The translations under genes and the position numbers were made by a program. Source: Haloferax gibbonsii ATCC 33959 (GTDB lineage: Archaea; Halobacteriota; Halobacteria; Halobacteriales; Haloferacaceae). From it: a stretch of 64,000 nt of DNA. The notes under the pieces were generated by a model. That model saw nothing but the letters and a program-made list of their open reading frames with translations. It had not been told where the DNA came from and did no database searches. The DNA lies in NCBI RefSeq assembly GCF_000336775.1, contig NZ_AOLJ01000011.1, positions 88,267-152,266 on the forward strand. The letters are read 5' to 3'. The first letter of the stretch is position 1. Each line of letters starts with the position of its first letter. Below are positions 9,061 to 36,430 of the stretch, in pieces.

Positions 9061-9987
9061 TCAGTCGAGGGCGTCGCGGACGGTGTCGACGAAGGCGTTC
9101 GGGAACTCGACGTGCGGGAGCAACATCGCGTCGTCGAAGACGACGAGCGTGCAGTCCGCGGCGTCCGCGAGGTCGCGGCCCCGCTTCAGCGGCGTGATGT
9201 CGCTCTCGCGGCCCCAGACGAGCGTCGTCGGGACGTCGAGAGCCGACAGCGCCTCGCCGAGGTCGACGTCGGTGTTGAGGTAGCCGGAGATGAACGACGC
9301 CGGCGCGAAGCGCGCGCCCTCCTGGTGGGCGGTGCGCCACTCGTACTCCTGCCACTCCTCGCCCGCCTTCTCGGGGTCGTAGTAGCCGTGGTCGGCGTTG
9401 AAGTAGCGAATCGACGGCCGGGAGGCGACGACGTTGAACAGCGCCTCGCCGACGACCGGCGCGCGGACGAGTTCGCGGAGCCACTCCTTGGGGTCCGGGC
9501 CGCCGCGCGACGTGGGACAGACGAGGACGAACCGCGAGACCGACACGTCGTCTCGCTCCGCGGCGGCGACGGCGTAGGCCGCGGTGAGCGACGAGGCGAC
9601 GACCGCGGGGTCGTCGTACTCGGCGAGGAAGTCGCCGACGAAGTCCTCGTAGAGCGCGGGCGAGTAGTACAGCGCCGGCCGGTCCGAAAGCCCGAATCCG
9701 GGGAGGTCGGGCGCGACGACGTGGTAGTCCTCGGCGAGGGTCGAAAACACCTCGCGGAACTCGCCGGACGACCCCGCGGCGTTGATGCCGTGGAGGAAGA
9801 CGAGCGTCGGGTCGTCCTCGTCGCCGGCTTCGACGTACGAGACGTCCATGCCGCGCCAGCGGTACGTCCCGTGGTTTCCGGAGAGCGGCGGTTCGAGGGG
9901 ACCCACGCGTTTCGAGAGGGCGGCGTTGGTCGCGGCGGCGAGACCGACGCCCGCTGCGGCCAGTCCGATGGCTCGTCGGAGTTTCAT
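9061..9987 (-). CDS. Alpha/beta hydrolase
   Basis: 308 residues. An N-terminal hydrophobic stretch (residues 5-22, MKLRRAIGLAAAGVGLA) could be an uncleaved anchor. The hydrolase core follows: oxyanion strand LVFLHGINAAG near residue 63, nucleophile elbow ASSLT, acid in WGRESDITP and His in LLPHVEFP. The elbow departs from G-x-S-x-G (Ala and Thr flank the Ser), as seen in some haloarchaeal hydrolases of this type. The substrate is unknown. Confidence 0.85.
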   Translation of the reverse strand: MKLRRAIGLAAAGVGLAAATNAALSKRVGPLEPPLSGNHGTYRWRGMDVSYVEAGDEDDPTLVFLHGINAAGSSGEFREVFSTLAEDYHVVAPDLPGFGLSDRPALYYSPALYEDFVGDFLAEYDDPAVVASSLTAAYAVAAAERDDVSVSRFVLVCPTSRGGPDPKEWLRELVRAPVVGEALFNVVASRPSIRYFNADHGYYDPEKAGEEWQEYEWRTAHQEGARFAPASFISGYLNTDVDLGEALSALDVPTTLVWGRESDITPLKRGRDLADAADCTLVVFDDAMLLPHVEFPNAFVDTVRDALD

Positions 9988-34237: not shown

Positions 34238-36430
34238 ATGAGTCACGAGGACTTCCCCACGGAGAAGCCAGCGGTGGTGACGTGTGGACTGCCGTACGCC
34301 AACGGCGACCTCCACATCGGCCACCTCAGAACGTACGTCGGCGGCGACATCTACAGTCGCTCGCTGCGAACACTCGGCCAAAAGACGGCCTTCGTCAGCG
34401 GGTCGGACATGCACGGCACGCCCGTCGCCGTCAACGCCGAGAAGGAGGGCGTCACGCCCGAGGAGTTCGCGCTCCGCCACCACGAGAAGTACGAGGCGAC
34501 GTTCCCCCGCTTCAACATCGAGTTCGACAACTACGGCCACACCCACGACGAGACGAACACCGAACTGACCCAGGAAATCGTCCGCACGCTCGAAGCCGAG
34601 GGCTACGTCTACGAGAAGGAGATTCCGGTCGCCTACGACCCCGAGGCGGACCAGTGGCTCCCCGACCGCTTCGTCGAGGGCACCTGTCCGTACTGCGGCG
34701 CGCACGCCCGCGGCGACGAGTGCGACGAGGGCTGCGGCCGCCACCTCGAACCCGGCGAAATCGAAGACCCGACCTCGACGCTCACCGGCAACGCCGCGGA
34801 GTACCGCGAGCGCGAGCACAAGTTCTTCGCGGTCTCCGACCTCCAAGACTACCTCCAGGAGTTCATCGACCGCCTCGAAGGCACCTCGAACGCCCAGAAC
34901 CAGCCCCGCGAGTGGATAGAGGGCGAACTGCAGGACTGGTGTATCACCCGCGACATGGACTGGGGCATCGACTACCCCGGCGTCTCCGAATCCGCCGAGG
35001 ATTCGGAGGCAGACCAGACGGAGTCTGGGCGTGACGATAGCGACGACCTCGTGCTGTACGTCTGGGTCGACGCGCCAATCGAATACATCTCCTCGACCAA
35101 GCAGTACACGGAGCGCGTCGGCGCCGACACATTCGACTGGGAGGCCGCGTGGAAGGACGCCGGTGTCTCTGAATCCGACGCGGGTTCGGAGGCTCGCCGG
35201 ACGGAGTCCGGCGGTGACATCGTCCACATCATCGGCCGCGACATCATCCAGCACCACACCGTCTTCTGGCCGGCGATGCTCCGCGGCGCGGGCTACGTCG
35301 AGCCGCGCGCGGTCATGGCCTCCGGCTTCATCACGCTCAACGGCAAGGGCTTTTCCACCTCGCGCAACCGCGCCGTCTGGGCCGACGAGTACCTCGACGA
35401 GGGCTTCCACCCCGACCTGCTGCGGTACTACCTCGCCACCAACGGCGGATTCCAGCAGGACGTTGACTTCTCGTGGTCGAAGTTCAAAGACCGCGTGAAC
35501 AGCGAACTCGTCGGTACGGTCGGCAACTTCCTCTACCGGTCGATGCTCTTCGCGTACCGCAACTTCGAGGGGACGCCCGAGGCTGAGGTGTCCGAGGAAG
35601 TCGAAGCCCGCATTCAGGAGGCCATCGACGAGTTCGAAGCCGGCATCAACGACTACTCGGTCCGGAAGTCCGGCAACGCCGCCGTCCGCCTCGCGCAGTT
35701 CGGCAACGAGTACATCCAGCACAACGAGCCGTGGAAGCTCACCGACGAGGACCCCGAGGCCGCGGCGCAGGTCATCCGCGACTGCGTCCAAATCGCGAAG
35801 GCCATCGCCGTGCTGTTCTTCCCCGTCGCGCCGGGCAAGATGCAGGCGCTCTGGGAGCAACTCGGCGAGGACGGCTCGGTGACCGACACCGGCGTCGACG
35901 ACGCCTTCGAAGCTCCACCGGCGTCCTTCGGCGAGCCCGAGGCGCTGTTCGAGAAAATCGAAGACGAGCGCGTCGAGGAACTCAACGAGAAGCTCGAAGC
36001 GCGCGTTGCCGAGACGGAATCCGAAAGCGACGAGTCCGACGAGGACGCCGAGGAGGATATGGACGCAGACTCCGACTCTGACGCCGACATCGACTTCGAA
36101 CCCCTCGCCGACGACCGCATCTCCTTCGAGGACTTCCAGGAGCTCGACATCCGCGTGGGCGAAATCGTCGCCGCCGAGGGCATCGACGGCGCGGACAAAC
36201 TCGCCAAGCTCACCGTCGACATCGGCGTCGAAGAGCGCCAAATCGTCGCCGGCATCAAACAGCTTCACGACCTCGACTCGCTCGCCGGGTCGAAGGTCAT
36301 CATCGTCGCCAACCTCGAGAAGGCCGAGCTGTTCGGCGTCGAGTCCAACGGGATGCTGTTGGCCGCGGGCGACGAGGCCGACATCCTGACGACCCACGGC
36401 GACGCCGTCCCCGGCACGAAAGTCCAGTAA
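34238..36430 (+). CDS. metG: Methionyl-tRNA synthetase with two in-frame repeat insertions
   Basis: 730 residues. Class I synthetase: PYANGDLHIGHL (HIGH motif), a zinc-binding knuckle (CPYCGAHARGDECDEGCG), and the archaeal KMSKS equivalent GFSTSRN. An acidic linker at about 590-620 joins a C-terminal EMAP-II-like tRNA-binding domain (from about residue 625). Two related insertions of 19 residues (GVSESAEDSEADQTESGRD and GVSESDAGSEARRTESGGD) interrupt the catalytic domain 61 residues apart, at about residues 248-266 and 309-327. The flanking catalytic sequence is otherwise typical, so the inserts probably loop out from the surface. Confidence 0.97.
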   Translation: MSHEDFPTEKPAVVTCGLPYANGDLHIGHLRTYVGGDIYSRSLRTLGQKTAFVSGSDMHGTPVAVNAEKEGVTPEEFALRHHEKYEATFPRFNIEFDNYGHTHDETNTELTQEIVRTLEAEGYVYEKEIPVAYDPEADQWLPDRFVEGTCPYCGAHARGDECDEGCGRHLEPGEIEDPTSTLTGNAAEYREREHKFFAVSDLQDYLQEFIDRLEGTSNAQNQPREWIEGELQDWCITRDMDWGIDYPGVSESAEDSEADQTESGRDDSDDLVLYVWVDAPIEYISSTKQYTERVGADTFDWEAAWKDAGVSESDAGSEARRTESGGDIVHIIGRDIIQHHTVFWPAMLRGAGYVEPRAVMASGFITLNGKGFSTSRNRAVWADEYLDEGFHPDLLRYYLATNGGFQQDVDFSWSKFKDRVNSELVGTVGNFLYRSMLFAYRNFEGTPEAEVSEEVEARIQEAIDEFEAGINDYSVRKSGNAAVRLAQFGNEYIQHNEPWKLTDEDPEAAAQVIRDCVQIAKAIAVLFFPVAPGKMQALWEQLGEDGSVTDTGVDDAFEAPPASFGEPEALFEKIEDERVEELNEKLEARVAETESESDESDEDAEEDMDADSDSDADIDFEPLADDRISFEDFQELDIRVGEIVAAEGIDGADKLAKLTVDIGVEERQIVAGIKQLHDLDSLAGSKVIIVANLEKAELFGVESNGMLLAAGDEADILTTHGDAVPGTKVQ
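34979..35035 (+). repeat. In-frame palindromic mini-element in metG, copy 1
   Basis: 57 bp encoding GVSESAEDSEADQTESGRD. It has two hairpins: TCCGAATCC (34985-34993)/GGATTCGGA (34999-35007) with a 5-base loop, and CCAGAC (35014-35019)/GTCTGG (35023-35028) around GGA. It aligns without gaps to the copy 183 bp downstream. Confidence 0.82.
35162..35218 (+). repeat. In-frame palindromic mini-element in metG, copy 2
   Basis: 57 bp encoding GVSESDAGSEARRTESGGD. The first stem is TCTGAATCC (35168-35176)/GGGTTCGGA (35182-35190), where both differences from copy 1 give G-U pairs. The second is CCGGAC (35197-35202)/GTCCGG (35206-35211) around GGA: the A-T pair of copy 1 is a G-C pair here, a compensated change. 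Confidence 0.82.

Follow-up and report, generated by a model that had tools for sequence, protein, structure and literature searches.

Two in-frame hairpin inserts in metG of Haloferax gibbonsii, probable copies of a mobile mini-element found in many haloarchaeal genes

To our knowledge, selfish palindromic DNA lying in frame within genes has been seen as peculiar to Rickettsia and Wolbachia, together with a few cases in Methanocaldococcus jannaschii, whose repeats are reportedly mostly extragenic with few coding copies. Acidic extra peptides in loops of essential tRNA synthetases are also familiar from halophiles, as halophile-specific insertion peptides. The palindromic elements of Rickettsia are 105-146 bp long; in Rickettsia and Wolbachia such elements lie in frame in conserved protein genes, as well as between genes, and the host protein tolerates them (PMC2229807). 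As far as the same article reports them, the M. jannaschii palindromic repeats have coding potential and some are fused into protein genes (Suyama et al. 2005, via PMC2229807). CGTC REPs have stems of 8-9 bp with loops of 4-5 nt, an unpaired CGTC tag and a CCA-like tail, and form head-head dimers; some are intragenic and most are extragenic (PMC3733652). The PATEs of Haloquadratum walsbyi, which are terminal-only IS605 remnants, have palindromic ends, show no target duplication and measure about 52 bp at their shortest (PMC3119063).

We analysed two inserts in the methionyl-tRNA synthetase (MetRS) gene of the window, by which we mean the whole 64-kb stretch of DNA under analysis. The features discussed below are:

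34238..36430, + strand: metG, methionyl-tRNA synthetase, 730 aa, the open reading frame that hosts both inserts
34982..35032, + strand: unit A, 51-bp in-frame insert VSESAEDSEADQTESGR, cleanly missing from 12 of 15 Haloferax genomes
34982..35010, + strand: unit A hairpin 1, GTCTCCGAATCC-GCCGA-GGATTCGGAGGC, helix 1 of the 33-copy alignment
35014..35028, + strand: unit A hairpin 2, CCAGAC-GGA-GTCTGG, helix 2 of the 33-copy alignment
35165..35215, + strand: unit B, 51-bp in-frame insert VSESDAGSEARRTESGG, missing from 11 Haloferax genomes
35165..35193, + strand: unit B hairpin 1, from folding and the nine-copy and 33-copy alignments
35195..35213, + strand: unit B hairpin 2, CGCCGGAC-GGA-GTCCGGCG, from folding and the same two alignments

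An earlier note on this DNA had described two gapless 57-bp units, in frame in MetRS and 183 bp apart, each folding into two hairpins of fixed geometry. The units are indeed at 34979-35035 and 35162-35218, and the fold was reproduced for both. Units A and B align without gaps over 62 nt with 79% identity. The first stem of unit A has 10 bp (12 with one G-U) and a 5-nt loop, and its second stem, of 6 bp around GGA, lies 5 nt beyond the first; unit B has the same geometry, except that its second stem is 8 bp. Unit A is flanked by the host codons GGC (5') and GAC (3'), unit B by GGT/GGC (5') and GAC (3'). The predicted tryptic peptides are DMDWGIDYPGVSESAEDSEADQTESGR for unit A and DAGVSESDAGSEAR for unit B.

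The MetRS reading frame is colinear with those of Haloferax and other haloarchaea, and also with Pyrococcus MetRS (PDB code 1RQG), alignment to which places both insert sites in loops between conserved motifs. An AlphaFold2 model of the protein has a mean pLDDT of 79.8, with both inserts (residues 250-268 and 309-323) below 50. The inserts are thus predicted to sit in disordered loops, and the element is probably near-neutral for MetRS.

The window contains one hairpin pair with stems of at least 9 and at least 6 bp, against 0.28 expected at its composition. The geometry of a single unit is weak evidence when taken alone, and is not extraordinary in 64 kb. Hairpin pairs at 9597, 16394 and 21385 of the window were rejected, as they resemble ordinary coding DNA.

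Related sequences are common elsewhere. A blastn search with copy B against 171 genomes of the family returned matches in other genera, within RFC, CbiX-like and HMG-CoA reductase genes. A first covariance model, built from nine copies and with 14 candidates scored per genome, gave matches at E<=0.01 in at least 193 of 392 Halobacteriales genomes (one genome per species) and at least 60 of 95 genera; deeper scoring of 14 genomes, by a second model, gave 2 to 30 matches per genome. All 27 genomes that matched at E<=0.001 in a 345-genome sample of the phylum fall in Halobacteriales. We read 129 in-frame copies of the unit's family and one related family, at 85 or more distinct sites. We named the host genes from their sequence context; among them are NadB-like, DNA ligase, RFC, PheT, MetRS (site A), SdhA, RibE, PEP synthase, a DUF255/YyaL-like protein, UDP-glucose epimerase and HMG-CoA reductase. 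Annotated RefSeq genes that hold the unit, whole or in part, encode an S9 peptidase in Halorussus salilacus and a P-type ATPase in Halomicrobium urmianum. The 48-bp cores can be 92-98% identical between unrelated genes of different species and even of different families, as in the pairs G208/G384, G326/G237 and G290/G237.

The covariance search that the earlier note had called for thus places the unit, in frame, in many more genes and genera. Copies are abundant in other haloarchaea, and the window genome has the two metG units alone: neither an exact or near-exact hairpin pattern nor the covariance model detected a third copy there. Since its copies are the two in metG, copying inside this genome is not directly visible. 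With one genome per species, the comparison likewise showed no insertion event inside a species. No copies were found in viral contigs or phage collections, and a search of plasmids with the type-1 consensus returned nothing relevant. Rfam gave no match at the gathering score; the only sub-threshold hit, a CRISPR repeat at 21.8 bits, was disregarded.

Extragenic copies and reverse-orientation copies also occur, and intergenic ones may be under-sampled because coding copies were used to train the covariance models. In G322, a genome of the genus Halorussus, near-identical 59-bp intergenic copies are REP-like and type-2-like (L263, L264, L266, L328 and L329). Several genera share a conserved intergenic sequence of 53 bp that forms two hairpins and has conserved flanks (ggtcgggg...cgaggcgg; L211, L231 and L318-L323). 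In places it lies downstream of a gene for a PIN-domain protein or upstream of one for an RPA-like protein. It has no Rfam match, and may be either a non-coding RNA or the element in its extragenic form.

We compared metG across 15 Haloferax genomes, as the earlier note had proposed, and found species with both units, only A, only B or neither. The MetRS alignment is colinear around both sites apart from the inserts. Unit A is carried by 3 of the 15 (the window genome, Q22 and marisrubri) and unit B by 4 (the window genome, Q22, denitrificans and massiliensis), so that the window genome and Q22 have both; the other 10 species have neither, and their gaps are clean. H. denitrificans carries unit B and its sister sulfurifontis does not; marisrubri carries unit A, which is missing from prahovense and G014. 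The earlier note had set out what would be seen if both inserts were ordinary loops, namely that they would always be present; since the units are patchy among Haloferax metG genes, this is not the case. The blastn search with copy B also located a copy at site B of MetRS in Halegenticoccus soli.

The distribution of the units on the metG tree requires several gains, losses or exchanges. A single insertion in metG could have been duplicated or gene-converted and then spread within Haloferax by homologous recombination, in which case transposition would not be needed in metG. Recombination is frequent in Haloferax, the similarity of A and B is compatible with duplication, and the departure from a simple metG tree fits recombination or loss. 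However, the linker and second stem of B (GCTCGCC...) resemble those of the Halegenticoccus copy at this site and of the family consensus, while A differs (GCAGACC...), and the family is dispersed over at least 85 sites elsewhere. This history would account for the spread of alleles and not for the origin of the units, and we consider it unlikely.

The earlier note had argued from the two copies that base pairing is preserved. That argument is too weak alone, as 7 of 200 synonymous recodings of unit A and 23 of 200 of unit B fold as well as the natural sequence; the claim itself is upheld by covariation over 33 copies. In the 33-copy alignment, which was fitted to the model and so somewhat favours pairing, 97.6% of cells are paired (helix 1, 98.1%; helix 2, 97%) compared with 86.0% after shuffling. 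A nine-copy alignment built without the model agrees, with 96.6% paired. Double-sided changes occur over the 33 copies at 12 of 20 pairs, in 71 cells (17.4 when shuffled). None of 500 shuffles equalled the observed pairing or covariation, and slid controls fall to 32-49% paired. Synonymous recoding of 97 in-frame copies with local codon usage gave a mean folding-energy z of -2.7, and 40 of the 97 were unbeaten by any of 200 recodings. Chance is excluded by the presence and absence of the units among species, their occurrence in other genes and the covariation over 33 copies taken together.

The same data bear on whether the inserts are ordinary hypervariable acidic loops, that is, low-complexity coding indels with chance hairpins. 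Sites A and B do vary in length across all haloarchaeal MetRS, several of the other loops found there lack a clear hairpin, and in coding DNA of high GC content the hairpin geometry of one unit is no rarity. Such loops would not be expected to present the same DNA unit in unrelated genes, covariation, the recoding result, clean empty sites and intergenic copies; this reading is already contradicted, and we give it almost no credence.

The hairpin loops of all families are often C-GNA-G triloops (GGA or GAA), and in type 4 they account for 36 of 59 triloops. The C-GNA-G triloop fold is unusually stable in single-stranded DNA.

Comparison with empty orthologues defines the insertions. The HMG-CoA reductase gene has 48 extra bp in one of 16 congeners (genus Halorussus), absent from the other 15; a YyaL-like gene has a 45-bp insert in three genomes and a third gene a 45-bp insert in two, both at GAC|GGC junctions. 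No target duplication was found at metG A, metG B, the YyaL-like site or the third-gene site. Insertion is thus shown to be clean, without target duplication or base loss, and mostly between GRN|GRN codons: GRN codons are on both flanks in 79 of 97 copies, compared with 7% of neighbouring codon pairs. Core lengths run from 42 to 57 bp in steps of 3, and cores of the window's family have the ends GTC...GGT.

Nearly all copies lie in the same codon phase, and the peptide of 14-19 residues that they encode is acidic and flexible. Sense-strand phase 0 was called automatically for 93 of 111 matches and assigned by inspection to 6 more; about 9 of the 111 are intergenic, and at two acetyl-CoA synthetase-like loci (L234 and L238) the unit is reversed yet in frame. 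Phase 0 is open in every copy, acidic (+2.9) and low in hydrophobic residues, and the other sense frames are basic, one of them frequently with stops. As phase 0 alone combines a constantly open frame with acidity and few hydrophobic residues, selection after insertion is enough to explain the codon phase; a target preference in codon register may be another source.

Conserved hairpins in coding sequence could also reflect functional mRNA structure, selected in each gene for translational pausing, bypassing or regulation. The coding-RNA hairpins have energies of about -20 to -40 kcal/mol and their stems covary, as this would predict. Against it, the units are patchy among sister species, their location varies by gene, intergenic copies exist, and Rfam gave no match; moreover, every copy has an open frame 0 and a length divisible by 3, which would not be expected for bypassing. 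We judge a role of this kind very improbable.

We conclude that the metG units are very probably two copies of a non-autonomous mobile hairpin mini-element of haloarchaea. New copies might arise when a hairpin-forming single strand is copied into a new place, with a trans-acting HUH/Y1 transposase, or template switching during replication or repair, as candidate movers. Insertions in genes would survive only in surface loops, and only in the single frame that never closes and that encodes acidic, non-hydrophobic sequence. Copies would depend on the hairpins for their spread and so retain them, perhaps with intrastrand template correction as an aid. The search for a mobilising enzyme found none. 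Y1 transposases are present in 6 of the 9 genomes searched, the window genome among them, and the unit was not found at the ends of their 18 Y1 loci. One IS200 transposase is itself invaded by a two-hairpin insert, which we count against the mobilisation link.

More specifically, the inserts could be terminal-only IS200/IS605 derivatives (PATE-like) or REP-type sequences moved by a Y1 (HUH) transposase. Their hairpin architecture without target duplication, the 52-bp terminal-only PATEs of Haloquadratum (PMC3119063), the Y1 transposases in those six genomes, the abundance of C-GNA-G triloops and an extragenic two-hairpin unit close to one IS200 copy are all consistent with this. It is opposed by the ends of the 18 Y1 loci, which have no strong R2 match, by three of the nine genomes having no Y1 match, two of which (G208 and G247) are among the most copy-rich, and by a target that is GRN|GRN in codon register rather than a fixed tetranucleotide. 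We regard such a derivation as doubtful.

The mini-element can now be set beside the known systems. The earlier note's likening of it to Rickettsia palindromic elements holds in kind, as the unit is repeated at unrelated loci and in frame in conserved genes with empty orthologues; the likeness need not reflect common descent. The haloarchaeal unit falls below the Rickettsia length range, is GC-rich with two hairpins, and occurs in archaea in one fixed codon phase with an acidic peptide, across an order rather than one genus. Like the M. jannaschii repeats it is an archaeal palindrome, and by their description it would differ from them in its many coding copies. Like CGTC REPs it is a short palindrome, and some units begin with CGTC; however, its GTC is paired, its 3' end is GGTGRC, it has no CCA tail and its two distinct hairpins are in direct order. 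The string 'halo' does not occur in the text of the GTAG/CGTC REP paper (PMC3733652). PATEs are similar in length and in the absence of target duplication, but the haloarchaeal unit is mostly in frame within genes, and palindromes shared with IS200/IS605 ends were not seen at the 18 Y1 loci. With core ends GTC...GGT and no target duplication at four sites, it also lacks the terminal inverted repeats plus duplication that define MITEs. In contrast to halophile-specific insertion peptides, the peptide here arises as a side product of DNA that is repeated in many genes. The unit therefore has the full defining features of none of the Rickettsia elements, intragenic REPs or PATEs. We found no earlier description in haloarchaea in the open-access papers searched, and the hairpin mini-elements apparently form an undescribed class that has spread into many genes across haloarchaea.

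In-frame palindromic elements are thus now known from a free-living, genetically tractable archaeal order, where about half the species sampled have them. Essential genes are affected, and natural filled and empty alleles exist within Haloferax, so movement, coding tolerance and a role in protein evolution can be tested in the laboratory. Annotators should be cautious, as mobile DNA may have left behind many annotated 'halophile-specific acidic insertions'. A broader proposal, which we make tentatively and with opinion nearly balanced, is that the mini-elements are still active and pervasive in haloarchaea, with several families of one design that prefer protein-coding genes and spread as single strands in a codon-compatible, duplication-free manner, giving acidic linkers. 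If true, they would be a continuing source of protein loop evolution for an entire archaeal order.

Related families of the same design were found at MetRS and beyond. In Halorubrum and in Haloarcula vallismortis, site A of MetRS is occupied by a type-4 two-hairpin unit; its hairpin 1 is GAGGCGAC-GGA-GTCGCCTC, followed by GGCGGT-GAA-ACCGCC, and its peptide is GEASETPREGGETAD. The type-4 model R3, which had two edited training rows (a linker shortened, a nested insert removed) and served as a search tool only, found in-frame copies in many genes, with 26 of 30 loci automatically called phase 0 at 48-51 bp. R3 matches were counted only at E<=1e-8, as its E-values are too optimistic, which gave about 148 of 293 genomes by hand count; a tally of 235 genomes was set aside owing to false window matches at 1.7e-4.

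In an IS200/Y1 transposase of Haloferax denitrificans (L277, G001:C2:119150), an in-frame 51-bp two-hairpin insert follows HIVFVPK, with hairpins GCGGAATC-GAA-GATTCCGC and GCGGAAC-AGA-GTTCCGC and the peptide SGGIEDSADLAEQSSAQ; it apparently represents another family of the same design. At MetRS site A of Halegenticoccus (L058 and L061), the GAA loop of the second hairpin of a type-4 unit is interrupted by a nested two-hairpin insert, GCGGAGC-GTA-GCTCCGC and GCGGGC-GAA-GCCCGC. A further 36-bp in-frame insert adjoins unit A in Haloferax Q22 and marisrubri (L033/L107 and L036/L049) and forms a 10-bp hairpin, GTCGGACGGC-AGTTCGTC-GCCGTCCGAC; a relative lies at the same MetRS site in Halogranum rubrum (L056). 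Haloferax larsenii has an 18-bp hairpin insert at site B.
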